This document shows positions 17,119 through 41,850 of a stretch of DNA of 64,000 nt, piece by piece (positions within the stretch are counted from its first letter, which is position 1; each line of letters begins with the position of its first letter). Source of the stretch: Kiritimatiellia bacterium (GTDB lineage: Bacteria; Verrucomicrobiota; Kiritimatiellia; RFP12; UBA1067). The stretch spans positions 1-64,000 of the forward strand of contig JAFRDO010000064.1 in assembly GCA_017403825.1 (NCBI GenBank), given 5' to 3'. Made by a program: the position numbers and the translations under genes. Below the pieces are notes generated by a model. It was not told where the DNA came from and did no database searches. It was given only the letters and a program-made list of their open reading frames with translations.

Positions 17119-17156
17119 CGCCACCTTAGTCATCCACGGCATTGGAGGAGGCTGCG

Positions 17157-21214: not shown

Positions 21215-22525
21215 ATGATGAAGGTCAAAAGAGACTTGTTCTTGAATCGTCTGATGGCCAGACGTTTTAATGGCATGGTAAAGGTCATTACCGGACTTAG
21301 GAGATGCGGCAAATCGTATTTGCTTGGAATCCTTTACAAGGAGTACCTGATTTCGCTTGGAGTGTCCCCGGATCATATTGTGGAGGTTGCGTTGGACGAG
21401 CCTGAAAACTACAAGCTTCACAATCCGCTGAAACTTGACGCCTATCTGAAGTCGAAGATCAAGGACGATGGCGAGTATTATGTGTTCATCGACGAGGTGC
21501 AGTTCGTCAAGCGCGTGAAGGTGAAGGATCCAGCGTTGAAGGCCCCGGATGAAATCACATTTTATTCGGTGATCAATGCCCTTATGCGTCGGCATAACGT
21601 AGATGTCTATGTGACGGGCTCGAATTCGAAGATGCTCTCTTCCGACATCAGAACCGAGTTCCGCGGCCGCGGTGACGAAGTGAGACTTACGCCGTTCACG
21701 TTTGCCGAGTTCATGCAGACCTTCGGTGGAGATGCGCGTGACGCCTGGGATGAGTATGTCGTCTATGGCGGTATGCCGCTAGCGGTGTTTGCCAAAGGGC
21801 ACGAGGCTAAAAGCCTCTATCTGAAGGGACTGTTTGAAGAGACGTACATTAAGGATGTCGTCGAGCGCAATGCCATAAGGAAGCCGGAATGCCTTGGCGA
21901 CGTGTTGGACGTTCTCGCGTCCTCAGTAGGGTCGCTTACCAATTCCGTGAATCTTGAAAATACTTTCCGGACTATGAAGCGCACGGCAATCAAGGCAAAG
22001 ACGCTCGATTCTTATATTGCCAAGCTCGGAAGAGCTTTTCTAGTCGAGGAGGCGCGGCGATATGACATAAAGGGGCGAAAGCACATCGGTGCCTTGCGCA
22101 AATACTATTTTGCCGATCTCGGACTTCGCAATGCCCGTCTTGGTTTTCGGCAGATTGAAGAGACTCATTTGATGGAGAATGCCATATTCAACGAGCTGAA
22201 GGCGCAAGGCTTTGACGTGGACGTTGGAATCGTAGACGTGTTCGAGAAGAATGGCGCCGGGAGCGGGATCAGGAAGCAGCTCGAGATCGACTTTGTCGCC
22301 AACCGTGGCAGAGAGAGGTTCTATGTGCAGTCCGCGCTCAGCATCGACGATCCGGAAAAGGCCGTTCAGGAAAGACGTCCATTCGGTCATGTCGGTGATT
22401 CGTTCAGAAAGATCATCGTCGTCAAGGGGAAGATGCCGCTTCGCATTGACGATTCCGGCTATGCCATTGTTGGATTGATCGATTTTCTTCTTGATTCAAA
22501 TGCCGTACTGGGGGCGAACAGGTAA
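21215..22525 (+). CDS. AAA_14/DUF4143 P-loop ATPase
   Basis: A 436-aa protein with an N-terminal AAA_14 domain (Walker A GLRRCGKS at 27-34, Walker B VFIDEVQ at 90-96, sensor region VTGSNSKML) and a C-terminal DUF4143 domain (roughly 230-430) containing the RYYFADLGLRN-type segment (here KYYFADLGLRN) and an acidic/lysine stretch (LEIDFVANRG) reminiscent of a PD-(D/E)xK fold. These ATPases are abundant and mobile in gut and archaeal genomes, often as multiple near-identical copies; their function is not established. The gene has its own promoter, and the 75 bp around its 3' end are repeated 345 bp downstream, so a second copy once existed. Confidence 0.85.
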   Translation: MMKVKRDLFLNRLMARRFNGMVKVITGLRRCGKSYLLGILYKEYLISLGVSPDHIVEVALDEPENYKLHNPLKLDAYLKSKIKDDGEYYVFIDEVQFVKRVKVKDPALKAPDEITFYSVINALMRRHNVDVYVTGSNSKMLSSDIRTEFRGRGDEVRLTPFTFAEFMQTFGGDARDAWDEYVVYGGMPLAVFAKGHEAKSLYLKGLFEETYIKDVVERNAIRKPECLGDVLDVLASSVGSLTNSVNLENTFRTMKRTAIKAKTLDSYIAKLGRAFLVEEARRYDIKGRKHIGALRKYYFADLGLRNARLGFRQIEETHLMENAIFNELKAQGFDVDVGIVDVFEKNGAGSGIRKQLEIDFVANRGRERFYVQSALSIDDPEKAVQERRPFGHVGDSFRKIIVVKGKMPLRIDDSGYAIVGLIDFLLDSNAVLGANR

Positions 22526-25308: not shown

Positions 25309-25325
25309 GTAAGGAGAACTTTGTG

Positions 25326-28300
25326 ATGAAAGCAATTGGTTATATCAAGATGGTGAACAATGAAAAGGGATTTGGTTTTATTTATACCATTCCGTTAAGC
25401 GTAACGGAACATAAAACGATAGATGTTCATTTTAAATTAAGAGAGTGGTGTGAGAAATATGAACCCGAAGTGGGAATGTGCGTGTATTTTGGTAGAAAGA
25501 ATGGTGGGGCCAAAGGAGAGGAGGCTGTTCAAGTTGTTGAACTGAGCCTGTCAAGAAATCATTTGTGCTTAGCTTTAGATTATGCTGTGCATGGGTATAA
25601 GATTTTAGGATTTGATAAGAAAACAGGAAAAACCTTTCCTCGAAATGTTTTGCACGATTTACTCGCTAGATCAACAGGAAATGACGAAGGTGCTAAGCTA
25701 ATAAGGGATGTTGTTAGTGGCTTTTTTCGTTCCCACCCTGAGATTAATTGTGAATCTGTAATCGATAAGTTGGCTAAGAGCAATATGGTTCGTGAAACAC
25801 TCATATCTGTATTTGATAAAGGCTGCGAAGATTGCGATGAGAGAATACTGAATGCCATCAGACATTTGAAAGAGCGAAAAATTGAAGAAATAAACCATAA
25901 ACGGAGTCATGGTAGATTCATCGGGATTGTGAAATGGTTTGCTCCAGGTAAGGACGGCTCTGGTCAAGGTTATATAGTGACTAATCGTCATGGGTATGCT
26001 GACTTAAAAAATGCTCAGGGCGAATTGATTGAGCCGCGGTTTGATGAAGAGGCATGGCTTGAAAAAGATATTCGGCCACGACAGGATGACGTTGTTATTT
26101 ATGAGCGAGGTGGACGATTTGGGGAGGTGGCAATAAAAGTTAGACTACTAACCGATTCTGTGGATGATTTGATAGTGGTATTTCGATATGCCCCTGAGTC
26201 GATAAAGATTGAGGGGAAGGCATTTGTATCATCGCGCTCTGATAGACCACCGAAGGATTATAAAGTCGATTTGCTGAACTACGCATCCAGAAAAGTATTA
26301 ATGCAACATGATAGGCGCAAAGCACTTACAACATTCAGCGAGGCTTTGTCTTATGTTGATGAGCAGCGGCGGATTTTCATCTGTGAGAAACTAATATTAG
26401 ATTCATGTTTGGCGGTTAAATTACGCGAACTCTTTTTTAATGATGAGAACAAAGTGGAAGATGATATAGTATCTAAATTAGTGAGGGCGAAACTTCTGGC
26501 AAGTCTTAAAGAGACAATGTTGGCCGAACAAGAGAGGCTTATTGAGGAATGTGAATTAAATTACTGGCGTGATGCAAATAATGATGGTAGATTGATTGGA
26601 AGATTTGCCAAAAGCAAAACGAAAGTAGAGGATGTCCGATTCCCGACTTTTGGTCGGTTGAAAAAAGAGCTCTCGGTGGTTACCAATTACATTCCTTCCG
26701 GTAGTGAGGAGTATTGCTTCTTTGAATGGAAATTCTCAAACAATAATCCGAATTGTCCATGTCAAATTGAGACGGTTGGAGATCCTGTCCCAATTACGGC
26801 TCAAGAGATCGTTGATATGGTAAGGAAACAGGTTGATAAGGACCCTGACACAAGAATACGTTATGAAGGTGCTGTAGAGACAATTAGGAACCAACTTGTT
26901 GGAAGTGGTGCAGAAGTCTTTATTTATGAGTTGTTGCAAAATGCTGATGATTATCCTTATGGGAATGACCCTGTAGATGTGGAAATTGTACTCACGAATG
27001 AGTATTTGATATTTCGACATTCCGGCCGTAGTTTCGGGGCGGAAAATGTTGCTGCCATCTGTGATATCAATGCTGGCGAGAAGACAAGAAAGAGGTGCAC
27101 GATTGGATATAAAGGCATTGGCTTTAAGACAGTGTTTGCTGGTACAGATTGTGTATACATCAAAACTGGTGAATACACTTTTGCTTTCGACAGGAGAGAA
27201 AGCGAGAAAAAACATATTCCTTGGGAAGTTACGCCATACTGGAGAACTGATGACGAAATCAATGATGAAGTTCTGTCCTGTCTCCAATCTGAGGAACATA
27301 AATATCGTGTGAATATTGCCATCCACCCAGATAGCCCTGAACAGATTTCTGGATATGCTTCAGTTCTCAATACAATGTTTTCCGATGAGAAATCAATTCT
27401 GTTTCTGCGAAAAGTTCGTAGTGTCAGTGTCAAATTTGTCGATGGAAGTGTGAAATGCGTGTCAAACGATGGAGGAGTGTGGGAAAGGTCGCGCAACCCA
27501 TATTTTGATAGGGTTTCAGAATCCGCACGAAGAATCATTGAAGGGGCAGTAGCTGTAAACAATCCTAAGATACCCAAAAAATACATTGAGGTCATCGAAA
27601 CGGGCGTGAGCGTAAGTTTTGCATGCCGTGTTGATTACACAAACCCAGAGCGATTAGAATTGGAAAATGACGAAGGAAGCACTCTGTATTGCTACCTTCC
27701 AGCAAAAAATGCCCAATGGGGCTTTGGCTTTATCTTCAATTCAGACATGATCCCAAACGGCCGAAGAGACGATATCGAGCTAAAAGATGAGTATGATACA
27801 ACAAATCCTGCCCACGATCTAAACTTAATTCTGGCGCGACAATGTGGCAGTCGTTTCTTTGATTGGGTTGAAGAATTATTGGCAACAAATAGATTTTCGT
27901 ATGAGTCGTTATTTGCGCTTATCCCCAATTTTGATAAGTGTATGAGGGATCATCCAAAATACAAAGATTTTATAAACGAATTCAGGAGCGGTTTTAAGAG
28001 TCGACTTGGCGAACTGAAATTGCCAAATGAAGAAGGTAAAATGCTCGAGGCGCGTCAATTCACTTTAGATGAGACTGAGGTTGTCAGCAGATTTTCTGAT
28101 GGCTTCGTATCCATACGGTCTCAATTTAAGTCTTTGATTCCGATTGAACTAAGTCAAAGCAAGTCATTTAGAAATTTTCTAACGGAATATTCAAGTGATG
28201 TTGTTATTGACCGATACACATACGACAGACTGAGGGCCGATATCTCTACCGATGGTGTCGCTATAAATTGGTTGAAAGACGCAAGCAATAATAAGGATTT

Positions 28301-31300
28301 TATACGGTACCTTGCAAGGGCAGATAAGCTTGACTTGTTTTTGTCTGCGCCAGTATTTCTTGATAATCACGGAGAACTCGGTTGTGCTTCCGACATGTAT
28401 GGATATTCGAATGATATAAGATACCTTGAAGAACGCTTGCCTGAATTTGTTGGGGCGGCAAGATATCTATCTCCTGAGGTGAGTTGCGATGAGAATGATG
28501 CCAATGATGATTATCTTGGAAAACTGAAGGATGTGAATTTCAAGGCGTTTGGTCCAAGGACATTTATCCGTGAGACGATTCTGGCCAGAGGAATTGGACC
28601 AGTTTACGAAGAATCAAGAGAAAAATTAAAGGACATCAGGGTCTCCAAGCGGTTCTGGGCGTATATTGCCCATTATAGGCTATGGGAAAATAGGCAACGT
28701 TTTGAGGATGATTATCAACTATTATCTAAGTTGCCGTTTGTGGACGAAGATGGTATGCCAGTGGATTCCTTTGAGAGTGAAGCATTTAGTGTTTATGTGA
28801 AAGATGAATCATCGGTTGCTGAATTAGTTAAGGCCAAGTGGTATGTTCGTGAGAGAGTAAAAGTAATTAACTCGGAGTATTTCGTTGGTGATGAAGGAAG
28901 AGCAATAAAGGATTTCTTTTGTGACGGCAAGGTGTTTAAGAATTCAAAACAACTTGCTTATGGGTTCAATACTTTGGGGTGCTATTTACCATTGGCGGTA
29001 AAATTTAAGGATGAAATTAAAGATCTAATGTTGAGTAGGAAAGACGACTTGGGCTTTTATAATTATCTTTCTATGTGTTTTTCGAATAATAGAATTTCTC
29101 ATGAGAAAATGAAGGCGAGGTTTTGTGGATTCCCAGTTCTCGATACAGGAGGACAACTGATTGATAGAGAAGGGAAGGCGGTTTTTTATTATGGTGAAGA
29201 ACTTTCCTTATGGTTACGAAATGGATGGATCAAGGAAGATGCTATTGTCGTTTTGAATGAAAAATATTCAAGCTGGAATGATTTGTTCGATCTTCTAGGT
29301 GCGAGAAAGTATGTGGGAGATAATTTCGGAGAGATATTCAGAACATTACTTGTACCGCATTTGGATTTAGATTCCCGTGAGAAGGTGATAGCATTCCATC
29401 GTTTCATGGCAACGAAGAAAAACTTGCTTAACGACAATCAAGTTGCGGAACTTAAAAAGGCGCCAATACTTGTTCAGGGGCATGTAGAGCCTGTTGATGG
29501 ACTTAATGGGGTATATCTTCCTAAAGAGATTGACAGGCAAGAGATTGACAGGGAGATTGCGGCAGGGATTATTTCTGCCGACACCAAGATTCTTGATAAT
29601 GATCTTTACGGTAATGACGATACTTATTGGGGCGAAAAGTTGAGGGTCAAGCCCCTAAATGTCAAGGAAAACCTTAAGTTGTATCTGGAGAAATATCTAG
29701 AACGGCAAAAAGAATTTTTGGAGAATAGTGCGAGCGATCCTGATTTCAAGGAATTTCATCGGTTATTTATTTGCGAATTGGCTTCGAAAAAAGCATTGGA
29801 AATACGCAAAGATAGTGGATGTGGTGCTGCGATAAAGAAAGTTGGATTGTTTGCAAAGGATGGCAAACTACGTTTGCCGACTGAAATGAGATTCTCTAAC
29901 GAATACATGCCATTGTGCGATTTTGAATCGTTTGACAATAGCGGCACCTATGTATCAGAGTTGTATTGCGGGATTGAAAACATTTCAGAACTCTTCAAGG
30001 AGCTTGGTGTCAAAGGCAACTTTTCGAAAGAAGATGTTGCGTTACTTGCAAACAAAGAATTCTGTGAATATTTTTGGACGAAGTATCTGGCACAGAATAA
30101 GTTGGAATGGAGCGAAGTCAAGGATTGCCTCCGGGCGGACTTGCCGTGCGTGTTGGACAGAACGGGCGAAGTACGCAAGCCCGAAGAACTTTATCATCTT
30201 TGCATAGAGGATTACGTTCTGGGATTGTCCGACAGTGATTCCAAACTTCCAATGATGGATGGGATCGACAAGGACTGCCTGTCGGAACTTGAAATGAAAA
30301 TATCTCTGTCAGTTGAAGACTCGTTGGCATTCCTACTCTCTGATTCTGAATGTAAGATGTACAATAAGCGGGGGAGAGTGTTGCAGTGGATTGCAGATGG
30401 ATGTAGTAAAGTTTCTCACGATCTTGCAGAGAAGTATAGAAATGACGAGCTGGCCAAATGGAGGAATAGGCAAAAGGAGGTTGTAAGCGTCAAAGAGTTA
30501 TGCGCAATCCGTCGGGATGAGTCCTCTAGTCGTGTTCGCCTCTTTGCAAATAATCCACATGTCATGGATTTGATGGGACGCAGTATTGGGATTCCGGGTG
30601 AGGATGCTGGAACGATGTGGAGAAATGCAGAAGAAGCACTCGTTTGGTTGGGTGTGGAATTTGTCGACCATGATAGTATTATTTTCACACCAGATAATAA
30701 AAAGTTGGATGATAAAGTAATTTCTGCCATTTCAGTACGGATGCTAGTATTTCTAGCCGAACGTTATCCTGATGCGTGGGAACATGAATTTGATTTCGTG
30801 GAACAGCAATTGAAGAATGTTAAGTTCTATAGATGTAACAAACTATTGGTCCAATGCCGGGATATTGAGTGGCTGCGTGCCGAATATGGTACATTCCTTC
30901 CAGACAATGGGATCTTCTATTCTGCGGAGGATTGGTTGCATCCACTTGTGTATTGCGACGTAATTGCTAGATTAGGGGAAGATGTATTTAGGAAGCGATA
31001 TTCAATTGACGATCTTAAAATCGCTTTGTATGCCGAAGGTGGTGATAAGCAGATAGCGAAAAGAATATCGTCGGACACGGTGGGCTTATTGGCTGATGAA
31101 CAGTTCATGAAAAAACTACAGAAGTTGTTCCCCGATGTTCACGGCATGGTATGTGATATGTTGCGCGAAAATGAAAGTGCGTCTAATCAAACGACAGGGG
31201 AGGAGAATCAATCTGGCGCTGCAGAAGCCGCCCAGCCCGTCAACGAAGAAATGGGGAAAGACGAAATTCCGCCCCAAAAACCTGAGACTAAAAAGAACTA

Positions 31301-31961
31301 CTCTGAAGAAGAGCAGGAACAAATGTATCGTGTCTTTGGGAATGATTTAACTCCTGATCAGATGAATGATATCAATCGTATTGATTGCATCCGGTTGTTT
31401 AATAGTCTGATGCGAAAAGGGCTAGCGCCGAAATACCTTATAGGAGGTAATGACCAACGGGAGAAAATGTATGGCGATAACGAACGAGACGCAGAGCGCG
31501 ACTTTGTCAAAGATATGTTTGATAAAAAACAAAAAAGAAAAATAGATCATTCGGCGACTATTGAAACCAATGATGGCCGGATAATTCACGTTGTTGGGGC
31601 TATAAATGGTGTTGCACATCTGCCTCCTAGATGGTGGACAAGGCTTGCCAAACAAAATGATAAGGCGAGTGCAAAATATGTTGTGTGCGCAGTTGTGTAC
31701 CATCAAGATGATGGGTTTCAGTATCTAGAAACAAGAGGTGAGTTGATGGATGCAATAGGCGATAATTTTACCGTTATAAGAGTTCAGAGCGAATTGCGAG
31801 AGGAGCGATTCGCAAAGACACTTGCCCTATTTGGTTCGAATCCTGAATGTTCGGATTATAGTACATATTCATTATTGCTGTTGCATAAGATGAAAAGTGA
31901 TAGGTCGTATGAGTGCGTATTCACAAAAGAGTTTGGCAATGAGTCAATTAATGAGTGGTGA
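25326..31961 (+). CDS. Giant protein with two cold-shock-like domains and a Sacsin/HSP90-type ATPase
   Basis: A 2211-aa protein. Residues 2-70 (GYIKMVNNEKGFGFI) and about 196-275 (GIVKWFAPGKDGSGQGYI) both resemble cold-shock/OB nucleic-acid-binding domains. A GHKL ATPase of the Sacsin/NO VEIN type follows: N-box ELLQNADD (535-542), HSGRSF in the place of DxGxG, and GYKGIGFKTVF (594-604). The remaining 1500 residues contain no recognised domain and are rich in Asp/Glu/Lys, with helical stretches. A low-complexity acidic/Gln linker near 1955-2000 leads to a C-terminal domain (about 2010-2211) with conserved-looking GRIIHVVGAINGVAHLPPRWW. Similar giant HSP90-like ATPases occur in bacterial defence islands. 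The start follows AAGGAG; a GTG one codon upstream is possible. Strongly AT-rich relative to the core. Confidence 0.75.
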   Translation: MKAIGYIKMVNNEKGFGFIYTIPLSVTEHKTIDVHFKLREWCEKYEPEVGMCVYFGRKNGGAKGEEAVQVVELSLSRNHLCLALDYAVHGYKILGFDKKTGKTFPRNVLHDLLARSTGNDEGAKLIRDVVSGFFRSHPEINCESVIDKLAKSNMVRETLISVFDKGCEDCDERILNAIRHLKERKIEEINHKRSHGRFIGIVKWFAPGKDGSGQGYIVTNRHGYADLKNAQGELIEPRFDEEAWLEKDIRPRQDDVVIYERGGRFGEVAIKVRLLTDSVDDLIVVFRYAPESIKIEGKAFVSSRSDRPPKDYKVDLLNYASRKVLMQHDRRKALTTFSEALSYVDEQRRIFICEKLILDSCLAVKLRELFFNDENKVEDDIVSKLVRAKLLASLKETMLAEQERLIEECELNYWRDANNDGRLIGRFAKSKTKVEDVRFPTFGRLKKELSVVTNYIPSGSEEYCFFEWKFSNNNPNCPCQIETVGDPVPITAQEIVDMVRKQVDKDPDTRIRYEGAVETIRNQLVGSGAEVFIYELLQNADDYPYGNDPVDVEIVLTNEYLIFRHSGRSFGAENVAAICDINAGEKTRKRCTIGYKGIGFKTVFAGTDCVYIKTGEYTFAFDRRESEKKHIPWEVTPYWRTDDEINDEVLSCLQSEEHKYRVNIAIHPDSPEQISGYASVLNTMFSDEKSILFLRKVRSVSVKFVDGSVKCVSNDGGVWERSRNPYFDRVSESARRIIEGAVAVNNPKIPKKYIEVIETGVSVSFACRVDYTNPERLELENDEGSTLYCYLPAKNAQWGFGFIFNSDMIPNGRRDDIELKDEYDTTNPAHDLNLILARQCGSRFFDWVEELLATNRFSYESLFALIPNFDKCMRDHPKYKDFINEFRSGFKSRLGELKLPNEEGKMLEARQFTLDETEVVSRFSDGFVSIRSQFKSLIPIELSQSKSFRNFLTEYSSDVVIDRYTYDRLRADISTDGVAINWLKDASNNKDFIRYLARADKLDLFLSAPVFLDNHGELGCASDMYGYSNDIRYLEERLPEFVGAARYLSPEVSCDENDANDDYLGKLKDVNFKAFGPRTFIRETILARGIGPVYEESREKLKDIRVSKRFWAYIAHYRLWENRQRFEDDYQLLSKLPFVDEDGMPVDSFESEAFSVYVKDESSVAELVKAKWYVRERVKVINSEYFVGDEGRAIKDFFCDGKVFKNSKQLAYGFNTLGCYLPLAVKFKDEIKDLMLSRKDDLGFYNYLSMCFSNNRISHEKMKARFCGFPVLDTGGQLIDREGKAVFYYGEELSLWLRNGWIKEDAIVVLNEKYSSWNDLFDLLGARKYVGDNFGEIFRTLLVPHLDLDSREKVIAFHRFMATKKNLLNDNQVAELKKAPILVQGHVEPVDGLNGVYLPKEIDRQEIDREIAAGIISADTKILDNDLYGNDDTYWGEKLRVKPLNVKENLKLYLEKYLERQKEFLENSASDPDFKEFHRLFICELASKKALEIRKDSGCGAAIKKVGLFAKDGKLRLPTEMRFSNEYMPLCDFESFDNSGTYVSELYCGIENISELFKELGVKGNFSKEDVALLANKEFCEYFWTKYLAQNKLEWSEVKDCLRADLPCVLDRTGEVRKPEELYHLCIEDYVLGLSDSDSKLPMMDGIDKDCLSELEMKISLSVEDSLAFLLSDSECKMYNKRGRVLQWIADGCSKVSHDLAEKYRNDELAKWRNRQKEVVSVKELCAIRRDESSSRVRLFANNPHVMDLMGRSIGIPGEDAGTMWRNAEEALVWLGVEFVDHDSIIFTPDNKKLDDKVISAISVRMLVFLAERYPDAWEHEFDFVEQQLKNVKFYRCNKLLVQCRDIEWLRAEYGTFLPDNGIFYSAEDWLHPLVYCDVIARLGEDVFRKRYSIDDLKIALYAEGGDKQIAKRISSDTVGLLADEQFMKKLQKLFPDVHGMVCDMLRENESASNQTTGEENQSGAAEAAQPVNEEMGKDEIPPQKPETKKNYSEEEQEQMYRVFGNDLTPDQMNDINRIDCIRLFNSLMRKGLAPKYLIGGNDQREKMYGDNERDAERDFVKDMFDKKQKRKIDHSATIETNDGRIIHVVGAINGVAHLPPRWWTRLAKQNDKASAKYVVCAVVYHQDDGFQYLETRGELMDAIGDNFTVIRVQSELREERFAKTLALFGSNPECSDYSTYSLLLLHKMKSDRSYECVFTKEFGNESINEW

Positions 31962-31968
31962 GGTGAAC

Positions 31969-34287
31969 ATGAACCAGACATTAGCCAATTATGTTGATTT
32001 TTTTAACGATCAGAAAAATGAAAGGCTTGTCGAATATCGTAAATTGCTGCATACACCGATGAAGCAATTGTTATCTGAGGATCAAGTTTTTTATGGCGTT
32101 GTGCATGGGATAAGTAAGGAACGAGGTCATGTTGTACTTCAGTTCAATAGGAAGCATTCGCCGAGATTGAAAGAGCAGAGGACGTTGGTTGTCATTAAAC
32201 ATAAGGCACGAGATCTTTATGGTGAATCCCCTTACGTTTGGAATTGTTCTTTTGCGGACTTCCTGTCTAAAGATGAGCTGCATTCTGGTTCGTCTTTAGC
32301 TCTGCCGTTATATTATCTTCGCGGAAATAATGATGATTTTGTTTATGTTGGGTGTAGTGCCGTCGATTTGCGAATGTTTGGAAAAATAGGGGATGCGCTG
32401 TCTGCGGGTGTCAGGATTCATGTCTTATTGTATGAGTCGGAGCCGCCGATACGCTATCTCGCAAATCTTGTTGATTATATTGAGAAAAATCCTGAAGATG
32501 GCGTGTTGATGTGCAGACCGGCAGTTTGCTATGATGAATGGAAGCCGCAGCTGTTGGCCTATGATCCGAAGGATGGGGAAGGAATTTCAAAGACTTTGCT
32601 AAATGCTTTGTCGCAGAGGAATAAAATCGTTCTTCAGGGTCCGCCTGGTACGGGCAAGAGTTTTAATGCCGCGCAAGTGATTGCGGATTATCTCTCAAGG
32701 AATAAGTCTGTTTGCGTGGCGGCGATGGCCAACAAGGCGTTAATGGAGCTTATCCTGCAATCGCCATTGTCGAGTTACTTGTCGGCGGGGAAGTTGTACA
32801 AGACTATGTTGACATCAGACGAGGCCTTGACAGCAAAAGGGCTAAAGGGTGCTGGTTCCGATTTTATTGCCCCCAAAGGGTCGGCTGTATTTGCGACATA
32901 TTATAAAGTCTCGGATCAGTTCCGACACATCAAGGAGTCCAATGGCGTGCCGCTATATGACCTTGTAGTAGTGGAGGAGGCATCGCAGGCATATCTAACA
33001 ACCATTGCCGCGTTGTTACGGCTCGGAACGAGATGCCTTATTGTTGGTGATCCGATGCAGCTTGCGCCTATCGTTGTCGCGGAGAACAAGCCGGAGTACA
33101 AACGTTGGAATGCGGTGACGCAGGCTGATGGTTTGACATCATTTGTGCTGGGATCGAACGTGGATAGTTTTAGAATAACCACCACATTCAGATTGACGCC
33201 ATCAGCGGCTGAGTTGACTGGTGTTTTCTATGGGAATACGCTTCGGTCGGTTGCGCCGAAAACGATTGATTGGTCAAATATAGACAATCGGTATTTCCCG
33301 GTCGGCGGAGGCGTTGTTTTGGAGGTGCTATCTGGTGGAGAGGGCGCCGTTCTTTCTCCAGCGGCTGTTAAGGTTCTTGGGAATGTGCTTGATAAGATTG
33401 AGTCCAACTGCGAGGGTGCGCGAGTCGCTGTCATTACGCCGTTCAGAAACTCGGCCAAGGCAATACAAAGCCGATTTGCTATAGCAGGTCGCAAGTTGGA
33501 TTTGTCAATAGAAACAATAGATCGGGTGCAGGGGGCAACGGTTGATTATGCAATTCTTTACTTTCCGCTGCGCAATGTTTCTTTCTCGTTTGACGAACGG
33601 CGTTTTAACGTCGCAACAAGTCGTTCTCGGACAACGACTTTGATCTTGAGTGACTACGAGATGCTAGAGATGCGGTCTATAACGGGCAAGGTACGAGAGT
33701 TCTTGGAGAGAGTCAAGGGTGTTTACAGGGATGCGCCTCAAGATAATTCAGACGCACCATCGTCGGTGGCGATACAACCATTGACATGTGAGAGGGCCGA
33801 AGTATCTGCGATGCCGACACTCGCCGATGTTCAATCGTTGTTGGACAAGCTTCAGGCGCGCTTGGCATTGTGGCTTCAAGCTTGGTTGGCTGTAATGTAT
33901 CCTACCAATCTTTGGCAGAATGCGGTTGTTCCAAATTTGAGCTCTTTGCAGTTGCAGAATGCAAAGGACAATGGTGATAGAAGAATTGTCGACCTGGATC
34001 TTACCGCACTGCTGTCTGTCTTTATCGGCAATTTTAGGGCGTTGCGCACGCAGGCGCACATTAAACCGGAAATGCAAACGATGGCGTTTCATATCAAGGA
34101 TGTTCGTCATGACTATGCGCATAAGAAAACAACCGTAATATTGAATGTTGAGCCCAAGACGTTGCGCTATCATATCGACACAATGTCTCGGTTTTTGGAA
34201 GGTCTTTCAGAGATGCCGCCCAAGACTCCGCCGTCGAAGCCGCCCGCCGTGATAAAGCGTGGTGGGATCACCATAACCGCGTCATAG
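31969..34287 (+). CDS. SF1 DNA2/NAM7-like helicase with C-terminal HEPN-like domain
   Basis: A 772-aa protein. The N-terminal 200 residues are unassigned. The helicase core carries Walker A GPPGTGKS (224-231), Walker B VVVEEAS (E336-E337 in place of DE), motif III GDPMQLAP (360-367), RVQGATVDY (519-527) and RRFNVATSRSR, matching the Upf1/DNA2/AAA_12 group of SF1 helicases. The C-terminal region (about 640-760) resembles the Swt1-type HEPN domain: YPTNLWQNAVVPNL, then an all-helical stretch and RHDYAH (R713-H718), an Rx4H motif of the type that is catalytic in HEPN ribonucleases. The ATG at 31969 lies 7 bases after the giant ATPase stop. The pairing suggests a nucleic-acid-sensing remodelling ATPase delivering an RNase, by inference. 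Confidence 0.78.
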   Translation: MNQTLANYVDFFNDQKNERLVEYRKLLHTPMKQLLSEDQVFYGVVHGISKERGHVVLQFNRKHSPRLKEQRTLVVIKHKARDLYGESPYVWNCSFADFLSKDELHSGSSLALPLYYLRGNNDDFVYVGCSAVDLRMFGKIGDALSAGVRIHVLLYESEPPIRYLANLVDYIEKNPEDGVLMCRPAVCYDEWKPQLLAYDPKDGEGISKTLLNALSQRNKIVLQGPPGTGKSFNAAQVIADYLSRNKSVCVAAMANKALMELILQSPLSSYLSAGKLYKTMLTSDEALTAKGLKGAGSDFIAPKGSAVFATYYKVSDQFRHIKESNGVPLYDLVVVEEASQAYLTTIAALLRLGTRCLIVGDPMQLAPIVVAENKPEYKRWNAVTQADGLTSFVLGSNVDSFRITTTFRLTPSAAELTGVFYGNTLRSVAPKTIDWSNIDNRYFPVGGGVVLEVLSGGEGAVLSPAAVKVLGNVLDKIESNCEGARVAVITPFRNSAKAIQSRFAIAGRKLDLSIETIDRVQGATVDYAILYFPLRNVSFSFDERRFNVATSRSRTTTLILSDYEMLEMRSITGKVREFLERVKGVYRDAPQDNSDAPSSVAIQPLTCERAEVSAMPTLADVQSLLDKLQARLALWLQAWLAVMYPTNLWQNAVVPNLSSLQLQNAKDNGDRRIVDLDLTALLSVFIGNFRALRTQAHIKPEMQTMAFHIKDVRHDYAHKKTTVILNVEPKTLRYHIDTMSRFLEGLSEMPPKTPPSKPPAVIKRGGITITAS

Positions 34288-34312
34288 CCATGAGGCATCA
34301 TCTCAAAAGTGA

Positions 34313-34318
34313 TATAAT
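34313..34318 (+). promoter_or_regulatory. -10 box for the AlbA_2 gene
   Basis: TATAAT within GTGATATAATCTCG, 19 bases before the ATG at 34338 with GGAGAAAG between. No clear -35. Confidence 0.5.
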
Positions 34319-34337
34319 CTCGAATGGAGAAAGCGAC

Positions 34338-35747
34338 ATGAAGAAGGAAGACCAGAACGTTGAGTACAAGCAGAGCTGGAGGGATGAATACCTCAAGTGG
34401 ATTTGCGGATTCGCCAATTCTGCTGGCGGGCGGATGCTAATCGGCATTGCCGACGACAAGAAAGGCAATGAAGTTGTCGGCGTCGCTGACTGGAAGTCGT
34501 TGCTTGAAATTATCCCCAACTTGATGCGCGACACAATGGGGATGATTGCGGACGTTAATCATGTCCGCAAGGACGGCAAGGATGTCGTTGAAATCATCGT
34601 TCCGGCCTATCCCGTGCCTATCTCGCTGCGCGGCGTTTATTACGTAAGACGCGGCGCCACGAATCAGCGGCTGTCGGGGCCGGGTCTGGAGTCATTCCTC
34701 CTCAAACGGCGCGGGCTCCACTGGGAGAACCTGCCGTGTCCTCGACTGAAGCTGAAGGACATATCAGCGAGAGAGATAAAGCGATTCAAAGACCTTGCGA
34801 TAGACAAGGGAAGGCTTGTCGCTTCCGTCCGGCGCGAAACGAAGGAGAACTTCATTTCAAATCTCCATCTTGTCGGCAAGGACGGCATTTCATACGCTGG
34901 AGCGTTGCTATTCACCGAGAAGGCCGAGAAATGGATCGCTGGCGCATACATCAAGGTCGGAAAGTTTGGCGAAAACGAGGCCGATCTTGTCTATCACGAC
35001 GACGTTCACGGCTCTCTGATTGAGCAGGCCGAGAAAGCACTTGACCTCATCTACTTCAAATACCTCAAGGCGAAGATAAGCTATGAGGACGGGTTGCATC
35101 GCGTCGAAAAGTTCCCATTCCCCCGCGAAGCATTGCGCGAACTGGTTCTCAATGCCCTTGTCCACAAGGACTATTCGAGCAATATCCCGATCCAGATAAG
35201 TGTTTCCGACGATAAGATATACATCGCAAACACCGGCTCGCTTCCCGACGATTGGACGGTTAAGCAGCTTCTCGGCAAGCATTCATCATGTCCGCGCAAT
35301 CCCACTATTGCCGGATGCGTATATCTTACCGGGATGATCGAGACTTGGGGGCGAGGCATCCGCAAGGTGTTCGACGAGTGCAAGAGACATGGATGCCCGC
35401 AGCCCGCGTACGAGGTCAATACAGGAGATCCCGGCGACATAATGGTGCGGATAGATGCCGCGCCCGACGCTTTGGTGGATGAGGCGCAAGCAAAAGATAA
35501 TGGTGGTGTAAGCGGTGCTGTAAATGGGGCGTTAAATGGGGCGTTAAATGGGGCGTTAAACCTGTCTCCTACACAACAGAAGGTGCATGGTGAAATTGCC
35601 GCGAAGCAAGGCATTACTGCGGAACAAATAGTTTCTTCTATTGGTCTTGGCAAGTCAACAGTTGATAGATGCATCCAATACCTTAAGTCTATAAATCTTA
35701 TTGAGCGCAGAGGAAGCCGAAAGACAGGCGGCTACTTTCTGAAATAG
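34338..35747 (+). CDS. AlbA_2-domain ATP-binding transcriptional regulator-like protein
   Basis: A 469-aa protein. The N-terminal AlbA_2 (Schlafen-like) domain (about 1-125) has EYKQSW, FANSAGGRMLIGIADD and YYVRRGATNQR. A GHKL-like ATP-binding subdomain (about 240-370) contains ALVHKDYSSNIPIQISV and LTGMIETWGRGIRKV. The C-terminal winged HTH (QGITAEQIVSSIGLGKSTVDRCI) is separated by a linker of four NGAL-type repeats coded by tandem 12-bp units. The family is common in mobile and defence contexts and is often annotated as a putative transcriptional regulator; the function is unproven. The ATG at 34338 is preferred, with a promoter just upstream. The GC content returns to core-like values here, marking the right edge of the AT-rich module. 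Confidence 0.82.
   Translation: MKKEDQNVEYKQSWRDEYLKWICGFANSAGGRMLIGIADDKKGNEVVGVADWKSLLEIIPNLMRDTMGMIADVNHVRKDGKDVVEIIVPAYPVPISLRGVYYVRRGATNQRLSGPGLESFLLKRRGLHWENLPCPRLKLKDISAREIKRFKDLAIDKGRLVASVRRETKENFISNLHLVGKDGISYAGALLFTEKAEKWIAGAYIKVGKFGENEADLVYHDDVHGSLIEQAEKALDLIYFKYLKAKISYEDGLHRVEKFPFPREALRELVLNALVHKDYSSNIPIQISVSDDKIYIANTGSLPDDWTVKQLLGKHSSCPRNPTIAGCVYLTGMIETWGRGIRKVFDECKRHGCPQPAYEVNTGDPGDIMVRIDAAPDALVDEAQAKDNGGVSGAVNGALNGALNGALNLSPTQQKVHGEIAAKQGITAEQIVSSIGLGKSTVDRCIQYLKSINLIERRGSRKTGGYFLK
35514..35560 (+). repeat. Tandem 12-bp repeat inside the AlbA_2 gene
   Basis: Three exact units of GGGGCGTTAAAT (35526-35560, last base differing) preceded by a degenerate unit (GGTGCTGTAAAT). They encode repeated N-G-A-L. 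Unit length is a multiple of three, so slippage would change linker length without frameshift. Confidence 0.85.
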
Positions 35748-35780
35748 GGGTTAACAGCCGCGCTCCCCAGTATGGATGTT

Positions 35781-35794
35781 TGCGGATATCCGCA
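35781..35794. promoter_or_regulatory. 14-bp palindrome upstream of the RT unit
   Basis: TGCGGATATCCGCA is perfectly self-complementary and lies 12 bases before the -35 box. A second inverted pair (GCATATC at 35808-35814 and GATATGC at 35824-35830) sits within the promoter spacer. Either could be an operator. Confidence 0.45.
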
Positions 35795-35805
35795 GATGTC
35801 TAAAA

Positions 35806-35836
35806 TTGCATATCGTCAATGAGGATATGCGATAAT
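35806..35836 (+). promoter_or_regulatory. Promoter of the micro-ORF / RNA / reverse transcriptase unit
   Basis: TTGCAT (35806-35811), a 19-bp spacer and GATAAT (35831-35836) with an upstream TG (TGCGATAAT). The transcript would begin near 35843 and include the micro-ORF, the stem-rich region and the RT. Confidence 0.6.
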
Positions 35837-35871
35837 ACGCTCGTCTTCAAAAGACAAGAAAGGAGATCGAG

Positions 35872-36030
35872 ATGTACGGCAACTTGTTTGATGACTTCGA
35901 CTATGACAGCGGTCAGCTGGATGGCTGCGGGTATGACCCAGAGTCAGGTGGCTACTGCTATGACGGCTTCGTATGTCCTGACGCCAGCGACATGGAAGAA
36001 GCCGAGATGGAATACTGGAATACTCATTGA
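35872..36030 (+). CDS. 52-aa acidic micro-ORF upstream of the reverse transcriptase
   Basis: ATG at 35872 with a good Shine-Dalgarno (AAAGGAGA) 7 bases upstream, ending at TGA 36028-36030. The 52-residue product starts MYGNLFDDFDYDSG, contains three cysteines, six tyrosines and 17 Asp/Glu against no Lys or Arg, and ends EMEYWNTH. A length this short with a strong ribosome-binding site and promoter is suggestive of a real gene. It resembles nothing that can be named. By composition it could be a DNA-mimic or an antitoxin-like or adaptor peptide; that is speculation. It sits directly before the stem-rich region and RT. Confidence 0.55.
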   Translation: MYGNLFDDFDYDSGQLDGCGYDPESGGYCYDGFVCPDASDMEEAEMEYWNTH

Positions 36031-36190
36031 CAATTTTGGAGAGGGTGGCGGCGAAGGGCTTGCCGCCGTGGGCGGCCATCAGTGCGGGGCCAAAGGGGCG
36101 GCGGTTGCGATGCCGACGCTTTCCCGCAACAACCGAATCTGTTGCTCGGTTAATGATTCCGCTTCCCGCCGCCCCCTCCGGCTTATGTAA
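36031..36190 (+). ncRNA. Candidate structured RNA between the micro-ORF and the reverse transcriptase
   Basis: About 160 bases with four perfect stems: 36047-36052 with 36062-36067 (GGCGGC/GCCGCC); a 10-bp closing stem 36095-36104 with 36166-36175; and inside it two hairpins, 36104-36109 with 36125-36130 (GTTGCG/CGCAAC) and 36131-36136 with 36146-36151 (AACCGA/TCGGTT). The nested branched layout immediately 5' of an RT resembles the location of retron and DRT non-coding RNAs. The region is GC-rich, so some pairing is expected by chance. The reverse strand also shows protein-like stretches (LTEQQIRLLRES), so a decayed gene is an alternative explanation. Confidence 0.45.
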
Positions 36191-36220
36191 TAGTGGTTGG
36201 TGGATATTGGTTAAATCGTG

Positions 36221-37744
36221 ATGAAATTCGAAGACTACTTCTCGTTCGAGGCGATACTAGGCGACCTCGTAAAATGGCGGCTTGCCGGCAAGGATGTCGG
36301 CGGGACGCTTCCGCCGCGTGCGGCGTGGAAGCGCGGCGGATTCCGTGAGCGCAAGGGCAGAAGTGCGGAGTCCGTCCGGCGGGCGGCTATTTTGCGGACG
36401 GTTCGGTTAGCACGGGGAGCACTTGCTGATTGTCGATGGGGTACTGCACTTATTGACCTGGTTGACAAGGTGCGCGAGGCGGTCTTTTCGGGGAGCGTCG
36501 AATTTGATAAGCCGCGGATGATCAAGGTTCCGAAAGGATACAAAGACGGTCGGATGGAGTTTCGGGATGTTGCGTCTTTCGACCGCGTTGCGGATCGTGT
36601 CATCATGAGTCGCACGACGGCGTATGTACGCGACGTGCTAGAGGAGGTGCTGACCGAACATTGCTATTCGTTTCGACGTGACGGACGGATCACGCATCAG
36701 CTCGCGGTCGAGCACCTCAAGGAGTGGCGCGGCAAATTCGCAGAGGGCACGCTTGCCGTCGCGGAATGTGACATCAGAAAGTTTTTTGACAACATCAGCC
36801 ATGATGTCGTCCGGCGGCGTTGGGATGAGGTCGGATTCGATGCGAAAGCAAAAAAGGTGCTGGATGCGTATCTGCGTGCATATTCGTTTAGCGGAGAAGT
36901 AGGACGAGGGTTGCCGCAGGGCGGATCGTTCTCGACGGTGCTGGCGAACCTTGTCCTTGCCGAGGCGGACGCTGCAGTCCTGCGCGAGGCGGGTGCTAAT
37001 GCATTTTATGCCCGCTACTGCGATGACGTGGTGTTTGCAAGCGTTGATGATGGTGAATGTCGCAGAATGATGTCAGCGTATGGCGATGCATTGGCTTGGC
37101 TGGACCTGCTGATGCATCCGGTTGAGCCGTTCGTCTATCGTCCGGAAGATGGAAAGAAGACGCGGTATTACTCCATCAAGAGCAAGGGGCCGTTTCGTTG
37201 GAGGGAGGTGGAGGTCGGCGAGGAGAACTGTGCGCCGTGGGTGAGCTTTCTCGGTTGTCAGGTTCGCTACGACGGGGAGACGCGGATTCGCGAGGAGTCC
37301 ATCAACAAGCACATCCGCTCGCTCGGGCACGAGACGGCAAGGAAAGTGAAGGAGGTCGAGCGGGGAAGCCTTGATGGTAAGTCGCGTGACGAAGTGGCGA
37401 AGTGGTTCGCGTGCTTCCGCAATCGCTTGATCGCGAAAGGGGTTGGGTATGTAACGGAGAAGGTGAAGGACTGCCACCTTTGTTGGGTTGGGGCGTTCCC
37501 GAGCGTGACGGTGTGTGCCGATACGAAGATGCAGATGCGGCGGCTGGACCGAGTTCGTAACGGGATGCTGACGCGAGTTGCCAGCGCAATCCGTTCGCGC
37601 GGCAAGGCCACCGGCGGATTCGTATTGGCGCGGCACCGCTACAAGGGTCGTCCGTTCAGCTATTTTGGCTTTCTGGAAGAGGCTGCCCGCCCGACGAACA
37701 TGGCGCGACGGTGTGTGCGAGTTCTGCCGTATTCGGAATTGTGA
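36221..37744 (+). CDS. Reverse transcriptase of unassigned class (YCDD motif)
   Basis: A 507-aa RNA-directed DNA polymerase. The N-terminal 95 residues are basic and unassigned. RT blocks are: PRMIKVPKGYKDGRMEF with the ASFDRVADRV segment (about 98-126), YSFRRDGR (149-156), catalytic D184 in AECDIRKFFDNI, LPQGGSFSTVLANLVL (231-246), RYCDD (265-269, cysteine where YADD is usual) and FLGCQVRYDG (343-352). A C-terminal part of about 150 residues (thumb and beyond) has no HNH or maturase signature. The LPQG motif excludes a typical DGR RT, which has xGxxxSQ. It is therefore retron-, DRT/UG- or group-II-like, and cannot be placed more precisely by eye. No Shine-Dalgarno is obvious before the start; GTG at 36218 is an alternative. 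Confidence 0.85.
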   Translation: MKFEDYFSFEAILGDLVKWRLAGKDVGGTLPPRAAWKRGGFRERKGRSAESVRRAAILRTVRLARGALADCRWGTALIDLVDKVREAVFSGSVEFDKPRMIKVPKGYKDGRMEFRDVASFDRVADRVIMSRTTAYVRDVLEEVLTEHCYSFRRDGRITHQLAVEHLKEWRGKFAEGTLAVAECDIRKFFDNISHDVVRRRWDEVGFDAKAKKVLDAYLRAYSFSGEVGRGLPQGGSFSTVLANLVLAEADAAVLREAGANAFYARYCDDVVFASVDDGECRRMMSAYGDALAWLDLLMHPVEPFVYRPEDGKKTRYYSIKSKGPFRWREVEVGEENCAPWVSFLGCQVRYDGETRIREESINKHIRSLGHETARKVKEVERGSLDGKSRDEVAKWFACFRNRLIAKGVGYVTEKVKDCHLCWVGAFPSVTVCADTKMQMRRLDRVRNGMLTRVASAIRSRGKATGGFVLARHRYKGRPFSYFGFLEEAARPTNMARRCVRVLPYSEL

Positions 37745-37751
37745 GACTGTC

Positions 37752-37800
37752 ATGTAAGATTTTGTCGTAAGAAGCGAATAAGATATAGAAAGGAAATTGA
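37752..37800 (+). repeat. Intergenic tail motif, copy 4
   Basis: ATGTAAGATTTTGTCG, then GCGAATAAGATATAGAAAGGAAA, placed 7 bases after the RT stop and ending in the ribosome-binding site of the next gene. Confidence 0.55.
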
Positions 37801-37801
37801 A

Positions 37802-38710
37802 ATGGAAAAGGAAGAGGCCAAGCAAACGATCTTGGAGGAAAGCGTCCAGGCGTCGGAAGGCGTTATGTCGCATGAGAATCCCAATGTCGGTATGATTGGT
37901 GCAATCGTAGGCGACATCGCTGGGTCGCGGTTCGAGTGGCACAACCGCAAGAGCAAGCGGTTTACACTCCTGAAAAGCGGGGATGAGTCGCGGCATCTTT
38001 GTCGCTTCACGGATGACACCGTGATGACGCTGGCCATTGCGAACGCCTTCTTAAGGTGGCGGGAATCGGGCGATGGTTCGTACGCCGCGCTTTCTGCCGA
38101 AGCTGTCCGGCAGATGCAGGCGTTTGGACGGCGCTTTCCGCGTGCTGGGTACGGGGGTGCGTTCCAGCGATGGCTTCGTGACGACAATCCGCAGCCCTAC
38201 AACAGCTGGGGGAACGGGTCGGCGATGCGCGTTAGCGCGTGCGGCTGGGCCGGGCGGACGCTTGACGAGGTGAAGGCGATGTCCCGCGCCGTCACGGAGG
38301 TAACGCACAACCATCCCGAGGGCATCAAGGGCGCGGAGGCCGCCGCCGTTGCGACGTTCCTCGCACGGATGGGCACGCCGAAGAATGTGATCAAGGAGGT
38401 CGTCTTGCGTGACTACTACCCGATTGACTTCACTCTAGACGAGATACGCCCCGGCTATTCGTTTGACGTGTCGTGCCAAGGTTCAGTGCCGCAGGCGCTT
38501 GAGGCGTTCTTCGAGTCGACTTCCTTCGAGGATGCCATACGCAATGCAATCTCCATCGGCGGAGACTCGGACACCATTGGTGCCATCTGCGGAGCGGTGG
38601 CCGGTGCCTACTACGGAGTCCCAGCCGATATCCGCAACAAGGCGGAGAGTTTCCTCGATCCGTATCTTCTCGAAACGCTCCATGCGTTCGAGCAGAAGTT
38701 CGCCGTGTAA
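37802..38710 (+). CDS. ADP-ribosylglycohydrolase (DraG/ARH family)
   Basis: A 302-aa protein of the ADP-ribosyl-glycohydrolase family, which removes ADP-ribose from proteins or small molecules using two magnesium ions. Metal ligands are visible in MIGAIVGDIAGSRFEW and FTDDTVMTLAI near the N-terminus and in GGDSDTIGAICGAVAGAYYG near the C-terminus. The first 28 residues are a non-conserved charged extension. AAAGGAAA before the ATG comes from tail-motif copy 4. Reversal of a toxin-type ADP-ribosylation is possible, but no ADP-ribosyltransferase gene is seen in the window. Its final codons run into copy 5 of the tail motif. Confidence 0.88.
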   Translation: MEKEEAKQTILEESVQASEGVMSHENPNVGMIGAIVGDIAGSRFEWHNRKSKRFTLLKSGDESRHLCRFTDDTVMTLAIANAFLRWRESGDGSYAALSAEAVRQMQAFGRRFPRAGYGGAFQRWLRDDNPQPYNSWGNGSAMRVSACGWAGRTLDEVKAMSRAVTEVTHNHPEGIKGAEAAAVATFLARMGTPKNVIKEVVLRDYYPIDFTLDEIRPGYSFDVSCQGSVPQALEAFFESTSFEDAIRNAISIGGDSDTIGAICGAVAGAYYGVPADIRNKAESFLDPYLLETLHAFEQKFAV

Positions 38711-40813: not shown

Positions 40814-41850
40814 ATTGCGCCTTTGCGCATTTCGGCTGAATAAGAGGCCGTCCATGCCAACTTCCCTGCCTCGAAAATAAGGCACGAAAAAGATGCCTTT
40901 ATGACCCGCCGCTTTCCGCCATTTGCTATCCTACACTTGCGTTTGCGGGGTCTTGTCCTCGACGGGCGTAGAAAGAAAGGAGAAATGGCATGGCAAGGAC
41001 GGCAAGAATCAAGAAGTCGGGCATCGGAACCTCGTTCTACCACCTCATGTCGAGGACGAACGACAAGAGGTTTCTGTTCGAGAAGGGGAGGGTCAAGACG
41101 CAGCTCGTGGACGCATTAAAGCGCGCCGCGGCGTTCTCGGGGATCGAGATTGACGCATATGTGGCGATGGACAACCACTTCCATGTGGTCTGTAAGGTGG
41201 TACGCCCCGAGGAGCCAGTCCCAGAGGACGAGATAGTCCGCCGCGTCGCGGTGCTTAAGGGCGAGCGCGCGGCTGATGAGCTTTTGTCGCACTGGAAGGA
41301 GCTCCGCAGTATCGGCATGGAGGCCGCCGTCGCTGAGGCGCAGGAGCGGCTCCGTGCGCGTATGAACGACATAAGTGAGTTCATGAAGACATTCAAGGAG
41401 ACCTTCAACGTCTGGTACAAGCACGACTGGAAGTACACGGGGACGATCTGGAGCGGCAGGTTCGCGTCGACCCTCGTCGAGGGCGGGTGCTACCTGGCGA
41501 CGTGTATGCGTTACGTCTACTTCAACCCGATTCGCGCGGGCATCGTCTCCCGCGCTACCGACTATGTCTGGTGCTGGATGGCCGAGCCGGAGGCTCCTTT
41601 TGCGGGGCCTGATGGAGGGCTGATGAGGAGGGTGGCGCAGATAGAGGGAGGGAAGATATTCGGGAGCGAGGCGTTTGTTGTGGAGATGGTGTTCGTGCTT
41701 GGCGACAGGTTTCGATCGCGGCACGTTCCGGCTCGGGCGGTGGAGGATATGGGTTTCGCGACGCATGGCTGGAGGCTCGCTAAGGAGGTCGCAGTATGAT
41801 CTTGATGTGCAAGAACCTTGTAAAAGTGGCCTTTTGTGGGGTCTGTCCCC
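40786..41850 (+). mobile_element. RAYT-type element bounded by inverted REP-like repeats
   Basis: GGGGACAGGCCCCGCAAAA (40786-40804) and TTTTGTGGGGTCTGTCCCC (41832-41850) are inverted copies with two mismatches in 19, flanking a Y1 transposase gene. CCTTGTAAA occurs beside both ends (about 40807 and 41815). A degenerate third copy (GCGGGGTCTTGTCCTC) is at 40945-40960, and another core copy lies inside folC at 5739-5751. Confidence 0.75.
40990..41799 (+). CDS. REP-associated tyrosine transposase (Y1_Tnp/IS200-like)
   Basis: A 269-aa single-stranded-DNA transposase of the RAYT group. The HUH metal motif is HFHVV (63-67) in YVAMDNHFHVVCKV, and the C-terminal YVYFNPIRAGIV is typical of RAYT proteins. 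The catalytic Tyr is probably in the KTFKETFNVWYKHDW segment (residue near 142), by family pattern. RAYTs act on REP hairpins and are often domesticated. The ATG at 40990 follows AAAGGAGAAATGGC. Matching inverted repeats lie on both sides. Confidence 0.85.
   Translation: MARTARIKKSGIGTSFYHLMSRTNDKRFLFEKGRVKTQLVDALKRAAAFSGIEIDAYVAMDNHFHVVCKVVRPEEPVPEDEIVRRVAVLKGERAADELLSHWKELRSIGMEAAVAEAQERLRARMNDISEFMKTFKETFNVWYKHDWKYTGTIWSGRFASTLVEGGCYLATCMRYVYFNPIRAGIVSRATDYVWCWMAEPEAPFAGPDGGLMRRVAQIEGGKIFGSEAFVVEMVFVLGDRFRSRHVPARAVEDMGFATHGWRLAKEVAV

Follow-up and report, generated by a model that had tools for sequence, protein, structure and literature searches.

The Class 2 UG reverse transcriptases (RTs) studied so far use non-coding RNAs (ncRNAs) encoded in cis as templates (PMC12632851, PMC13174585). 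DRT2, DRT3, DRT9 and DRT10 each write a different DNA from such a cis ncRNA, and other Class 2 UG systems have been proposed to do so as well (PMC12632851). UG39 is one of the 'Unknown Group' RTs, a set of groups that includes defence-associated RTs (DRTs) (PADLOC). A literature search on UG39, whose scope stopped short of the founding UG/Abi survey, returned no associated RNA or mechanism, and an earlier report is possible; as far as these sources show, the RT group has been catalogued already, the RNA and accessory slot described below are undescribed, and priority is not certain.

The locus analysed here comes from a gut bacterium and lies in a stretch of 64,000 nucleotides (the window) on contig C41; the genome (G000) measures 3.93 Mb. 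The named relatives are Kiritimatiellae and other Verrucomicrobia MAGs, with ruminant guts as the main source. The unit and its immediate neighbours comprise the following features:

34290–35747, + strand: gene with Schlafen/AlbA_2 and HATPase_c_4 domains (Pfam), directly upstream of the RT unit (context)
35780–35838, + strand: promoter/operator-like block with the palindrome GCGGATATCCGC, a GCATAT...ATATGC dyad and GATAATAC
35872–36030, + strand: acidic micro-ORF of 52 aa (pI 4.05; 14 Asp/Glu, no Lys or Arg)
36034–36183, + strand: structured RNA, the predicted UG39 ncRNA (core 36038–36179; 142.6 bits here with covariance model R1)
36221–37744, + strand: UG39 RT of 507 aa when read from the ATG; a GTG start at 36218 is also possible
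37802–38710, + strand: ADP-ribosylglycohydrolase (PF03747, 8.7e-39), a recurrent neighbour

Family of the reverse transcriptase

The RT open reading frame (36218/36221–37744) is intact and carries the motifs ECDIRKFFDN, LPQGG and YCDD, bearing out the full set of catalytic motifs claimed in an earlier note on this DNA; ATG at 36221 is the better start because relatives begin MKFE. The same note had called the RT unassigned, matching no class that could be named. The PADLOC model RT_UG39, however, recognizes it with 314.7 bits (E 3.4e-94), as against 79.2 bits for the next RT model, and in a maximum-likelihood tree of 35 RTs (20 UG39, nine group II, five Drt2 and one retron, without Class 1 or Class 3 UG references) a branch supported at 100/99 groups the window's RT with 19 others, and the group II, Drt2 and retron rows all lie outside this UG39 clade. 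By profile and tree the RT is thus a member of the named group UG39, which has been catalogued but little studied. The YCDD motif, previously taken as unclassifiable, points to the same group: CDD is invariant in 21 of 21 UG39 RTs in a 21-member alignment, so that what the note could not match to a class is a hallmark of the family itself. Retron RTs usually carry ADD at this position, where UG39 has CDD. Other positions held across UG39 in this alignment are R-[YF]-CDD, K-[ST]-[KR] and, in the C-terminal part, G-x3-S-[YF], where Ser481 is invariant and Tyr482 is present in 19 of the 21 (numbering from GTG); an insertion before LPQGG is absent or shortened in the window's branch of the group.

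UG39 also occurs in other phyla. Five relatives scanned there score 485–593 bits with the PADLOC UG39 model, and a profile built from 13 UG39 RTs of the same order sets full-length distant relatives (Acidobacteria, Methylobacter, Flavobacteriaceae, Sphingobacteriaceae and Bacteroidales; more than 300 bits) apart from the remaining RTs, none of which exceeds 73 bits. Scans of genome contigs and viral contigs with a single protein as query gave no relatives, an alignment query being required; the matches of this alignment query in the viral contigs were merely generic RTs (20–32% identity), and therefore no viral UG39 was found.

After UG39 the PADLOC ranking continues with Drt9 (73 bits, 3.9e-21), UG23, Drt2 and UG32. 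When an AlphaFold2 model of the RT (mean pLDDT 86) was used to search the PDB by fold, the six best matches were all DRT9 RT–ncRNA complexes, followed by group II (GsI-IIC), G2L4, DGR and DRT2 RTs. The HMM ranking and the DRT9 fold agree on Class 2, and the best reading of the predicted fold and the ranking, with a tree that lacks Class 1 and Class 3 references, is that the UG39 RT would be a Class-2-type DRT. The likeness to DRT9 extends to an RT with an adjacent structured ncRNA, but sequence similarity to the Drt9 model is limited to the score given above, and the conserved poly-U template tract of DRT9 is not seen, no poly-U tract being present within 36034–36183. DRT2 is likewise a Class 2 RT with a cis ncRNA but forms a separate clade in the tree, and the likeness to DGRs is one of fold, to a DGR RT.

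Membership in group II, the retrons or Drt2 was considered and rejected, UG39 being the top profile and a separate clade in the tree. Like UG39 as described here, retrons combine an RT, an ncRNA and accessory genes, but retron models match weakly compared with the UG39 profile, and this genome's own retron-like RT falls elsewhere in the tree, which has a single retron row. That RT (L001, G000:C90:119464–120042; PADLOC RT_III-A / Ec107-like) is the only other PF00078 match in the genome. A domesticated or decayed group II intron, in which the RNA would be what is left of the intron domains and the RT would derive from a maturase, would account for a weak match to a group II RT model (88 bits against a cut-off of 300) and for the presence of GsI-IIC among the fold matches. 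This origin is nevertheless highly improbable: UG39 forms its own clade, an Rfam search of 35700–38000 gave chance matches only, with no family and no group II hit, and the curated families that pass their cut-offs include neither a maturase nor an HNH domain, in line with the earlier note. The RT phylogeny that the note had proposed places the RT outside the group II rows.

A conserved RNA before UG39 reverse transcriptases

Seven UG39 loci can be aligned over the bases that precede the RT start. Among 162 genomes of the order, the covariance model R1 finds matches in 8, each with an E value of 2e-15 or better. Of these, seven lie directly before UG39 RTs and the eighth (L086 in G104) is a remnant from which the RT is gone, so that among the 162 genomes the covarying cis RNA is confined to UG39 loci plus a single remnant of such a locus; all eight matches belong to a single family, and five of the eight to a single genus. 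Its elements in the window are:

36038–36051, + strand: 5' arm of P1, GGAGAGGGTGGCGG, pairing with 36166–36179 to form a 14-bp outer helix
36053–36058, + strand: 5' arm of P1b, GAAGGG, pairing with 36159–36165; GAAG/CUUC is invariant and continues P1
36062–36076, + strand: hairpin P2, GCCGCC-GUG-GGCGGC (36062–36067 with 36071–36076), with double-sided changes in 3 of 6 pairs
36083–36128, + strand: P3 (36083–36088 with 36123–36128) and the capping helix P4 (36095–36105 with 36112–36122)
36129–36158, + strand: variable region between P3 and the 3' arm of P1, with a local hairpin P5 (36132–36135 with 36147–36150; 11-nt loop)
36166–36179, + strand: 3' arm of P1, CCGCCGCCCCCTCC, on the same evidence as the 5' arm

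In the eight model-aligned copies, 21 of the 47 pairs of the consensus structure are changed on both sides, 94.6% of cells are paired and the covariation score is 0.416, compared with 0.214 for shuffled and 0.07–0.10 for slid structures, in an alignment that is fitted to the structure and thus leans in its favour. A structure-blind MAFFT alignment of five sequences gives 94% of cells paired and 11 pairs with double-sided changes, whereas structures slid along it are only 42–53% paired. P1 and P1b together show compensatory changes in 10 of 20 pairs across the eight loci, and the P1 arms are rewritten in concert (GGAGUUGGCGCCGG/CCGGCGCCAACUCC in G006, GGAGGGAAUGACGG/CCGUCAUUCCCUCC in G012). It might be argued that this conservation reflects nothing more than the close relationship of the genomes, without selection on RNA structure, in view of the single family and genus-heavy sample noted above and of the fact that relatedness survives shuffling controls; however, slid structures keep the same relatedness and score far lower, the P1 arms change together, and the stems recur in other phyla, leaving this explanation with hardly any probability.

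Covariation across eight loci thus makes the structured region that the earlier note had pointed to more than chance, and the RNA is kept beside the RT's relatives, where the note had suggested looking. The particular 10-bp stem it named (36095–36104 with 36166–36175) does not hold: the stem is perfect in the window, yet only 74% of cells are paired in relatives (26% unpaired), no better than in shuffles, and in the conserved structure both arms pair otherwise (36166–36179 with 36038–36051, and 36095–36105 with 36112–36122). The folding energy of 36031–36217 as a single sequence is not below that of shuffles (z −0.31); in this GC-rich stretch stem-richness by itself is therefore no evidence, and comparison is. 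An RNA of this kind can go unnoticed when its folding energy is ordinary, and comparison brings it to light.

R1 does not reach the distant UG39 loci (G144 attains just 16.5 bits, E 0.31), and a pan-UG39 RNA alignment was abandoned as too diverged for a single model (the RNAalifold energy going from −111 to −17). When the best long-range helix was sought in the 300 bases before the RT, an outer helix with its 3' arm ending 2–23 nt before the start, and enclosing several hairpins, was found at most of these loci, namely G140, L100, L103, L104, L105, L107, L109, L110 and L111; outer stems at G106, G132 and L102 are weak. Because R1 fails to reach these loci, which extend to other phyla, we infer from place and shape, and not from alignment, that their outer stems belong to the same RNA element.

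The RNA could instead be a cis-regulatory leader of the RT mRNA (an attenuator, a control of ribosome access or an autoregulatory protein-binding site) and not a template, the RT making DNA independently of it in the manner of Class 1 enzymes. In favour of a leader, the RNA directly adjoins the RT start on its 5' side in the same transcript, and at many loci no more than about 40 nt separate the end of the outer stem from the start codon. A multi-helix fold of ~145 nt that encloses a variable region nevertheless exceeds common leaders, the RT fold is nearest that of ncRNA-bound DRT9, and downstream of P1 the window has no T-run terminator; a leader is on balance unlikely, although it is the alternative to which we give the most weight.

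The decayed unit at L086 (G104:C9) lacks the RT and consists of the RNA remnant followed by a small acidic ORF and then by an ADP-ribosylglycohydrolase gene that is broken; by eye the RNA remnant continues from a DUF1016-like reading frame.

Proposed mechanism and candidate template region

The core idea of the earlier note, that a non-mobile, defence-type RT acts with an adjacent non-coding RNA, gains support from the covariation, the exclusive co-occurrence and the DRT9-like fold. The outcome that the note had named as a refutation, a group II or mobile RT clade without conservation beside relatives, did not occur: the RT lies outside the group II rows, the RNA is kept at related loci, and the micro-ORF is kept beside two other UG39 RTs. 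Our preferred reading, which we consider likely, is that the UG39 DRT works as a ribonucleoprotein with the ~145-nt ncRNA encoded just upstream and copies it into defensive cDNA. By analogy with Class 2 UG systems that use cis ncRNAs, the RT and its RNA probably make antiviral DNA from that RNA. The operon would be transcribed from the block at 35780–35838, and the RNA would either be cut from the transcript or fold within it and be bound by the RT as in the Class 2 systems DRT9, DRT2, DRT10 and DRT3a. A short stretch, most likely within 36129–36158, would then be copied into repetitive single-stranded cDNA, primed by the invariant C-terminal Ser481 or the neighbouring Tyr482; these may be protein-priming residues, recalling the C-terminal priming residues of DRT10. 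Either the cDNA or the RT–RNA complex would block phage growth, and the micro-ORF and the ADP-ribosylglycohydrolase would be accessory genes that might serve as a regulator and as an effector or immunity factor.

The candidate template region is suggested by comparison with DRT10 (UG17), which resembles UG39 in a large outer stem bearing hairpins, a variable region 3' of a stable stem-loop, and a conserved C-terminal Ser (PMC12632851). The DRT10 template lies in a variable loop just past the stem-loop, with its ends repeated (A-B-A') (PMC12632851). The stretch 36129–36158 is the most variable part of the RNA, and a P5-like hairpin with an 8–11-nt loop is present in 8 of 8 loci; one of 3000 shuffle sets did equally well, with hairpin parameters that were picked after the data had been seen. 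A test for direct repeats (A-B-A') across loci gave a Fisher p of about 0.05, a signal explained in part by palindromic GATC stems of the local hairpin, and no direct repeats longer than 3 nt occur in the window's own loop. Since direct repeats are marginal and a short hairpin accounts for part of the signal, a template role for 36129–36158 would stand by analogy only. UG39 differs from DRT10 also in its HMM score, that of DRT10 being far under UG39, and in its neighbours (Schlafen, ADP-ribosylglycohydrolase and others), among which the SLATT gene of DRT10 is absent; the A-B-A' repeats of DRT10 are not significant here.

More tentatively, and with somewhat less than even confidence, UG39 might represent an uncharacterised kind of ncRNA-templated defence RT, which would make a new kind of cDNA from the variable hairpin region and would combine interchangeable small upstream proteins, either the acidic micro-ORF or membrane micropeptides, with an ADP-ribosylglycohydrolase partner. 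If so, that partner would suggest that cDNA synthesis is tied to ADP-ribose signalling or toxicity. With limits, helices and a candidate copied stretch assigned to its RNA, UG39 is open to direct tests, and the two linked genes, the micro-ORF and the ADP-ribosylglycohydrolase, are added as candidate regulators or effectors.

Micro-ORF, upstream block and neighbouring genes

The description of the micro-ORF as acidic, well-started and devoid of Lys and Arg is accurate, the sequence AAGGAG being found upstream of it. Homologues with 54–56% identity lie directly before the ncRNA in G012 and G132, and changes at codon positions 1, 2 and 3 number 4, 4 and 15 between G000 and G012 and 0, 1 and 8 between G012 and G132; judged by these mostly synonymous third-position changes, the micro-ORF is a real conserved gene. 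As a component of the unit, where the earlier note had placed it, it is conserved beside two other UG39 RTs but is not fixed: of 13 UG39 loci just 3 have it upstream of the RNA, and in most it is missing or replaced. Other UG39 loci fill this slot with ORFs whose ends lie between a few and about 55 nt upstream of the RNA: two membrane-like micropeptides in G001, an SF1 helicase in G015, a basic 54-aa ORF in G006, a DUF3127-like protein in G099 (and, by eye, in G106), and a TOTE S1/CSD-like protein in G048. We read the micro-ORF as one of several interchangeable accessory ORFs. The G001 micropeptides (27 and 25 aa, MREFWVTVGAMVLGYILYLGIKSMSKK and MLIQYIAAAMIVALIGIIVAVIKRK; L059, about 5660–5840) resemble small membrane toxins.

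In G140 (contig C164) two copies of the micro-ORF flank a UG39 RT (16051–17688), one intact and without an RT (21839–21985) and one degenerate (10836–10910). By eye the degenerate copy precedes a decayed-looking RNA, a remnant in G140 that the R1 model does not confirm. The intact copy, together with the protein-level constraint, would be in keeping with a toxin–antitoxin-like module built around the micro-ORF, which would act as an antitoxin or DNA-mimic regulator, with the RNA and RT as its passengers. We regard such a module as very unlikely, given how few UG39 loci carry the micro-ORF and how varied are the membrane peptides, helicase, DUF3127-like and TOTE S1/CSD-like proteins found elsewhere in its place.

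The promoter that the earlier note had placed before the micro-ORF is supported in part. The palindromic block, from GCGGATATCCGC to ATATGCGATAATAC, is kept before the UG39 unit in three genomes (G000, G001 and G006) although the upstream genes differ, and its exact 16-base core, GATATCCGCNGATRTC, occurs solely before the UG39 unit in each of them; a sigma-70 consensus scan of the block upstream of the micro-ORF, on the other hand, gave no match on the + strand. From this conservation the block at 35780–35838 may have promoter activity.

An ADP-ribosylglycohydrolase gene lies beside the RT or within about 1.5 kb of it in G000, G006, G132, G092 and G144. The enzymes near UG39 RTs share 67–82% identity with one another, and the one in G006 is the only ADP-ribosylglycohydrolase found in that genome. 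Those of G000 and G132 are about 80% identical, compared with just 44% for their RTs, and the two genes therefore have different rates or histories.

The genes upstream, which encode a TmtA-like ATPase, an AAA helicase bearing a Swt1-like HEPN, and Schlafen/AlbA_2, resemble defence genes. A clear homologue of the helicase, likewise preceded by a large protein, lies next to the UG39 RT of G001 and upstream of it, and a Schlafen homologue occupies the same place next to that of G006. In the window the stretch 25323–34287 holds the gene for this AAA helicase and, ahead of it, that for a protein of 2212 aa, which combines a TmtA/sacsin-like ATPase with a cold-shock-like domain at its N terminus; this gene pair is possibly a defence system of its own. 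Near these defence genes, an ORF at 40990–41799 resembles, by eye, a REP-associated (Y1-type) transposase.
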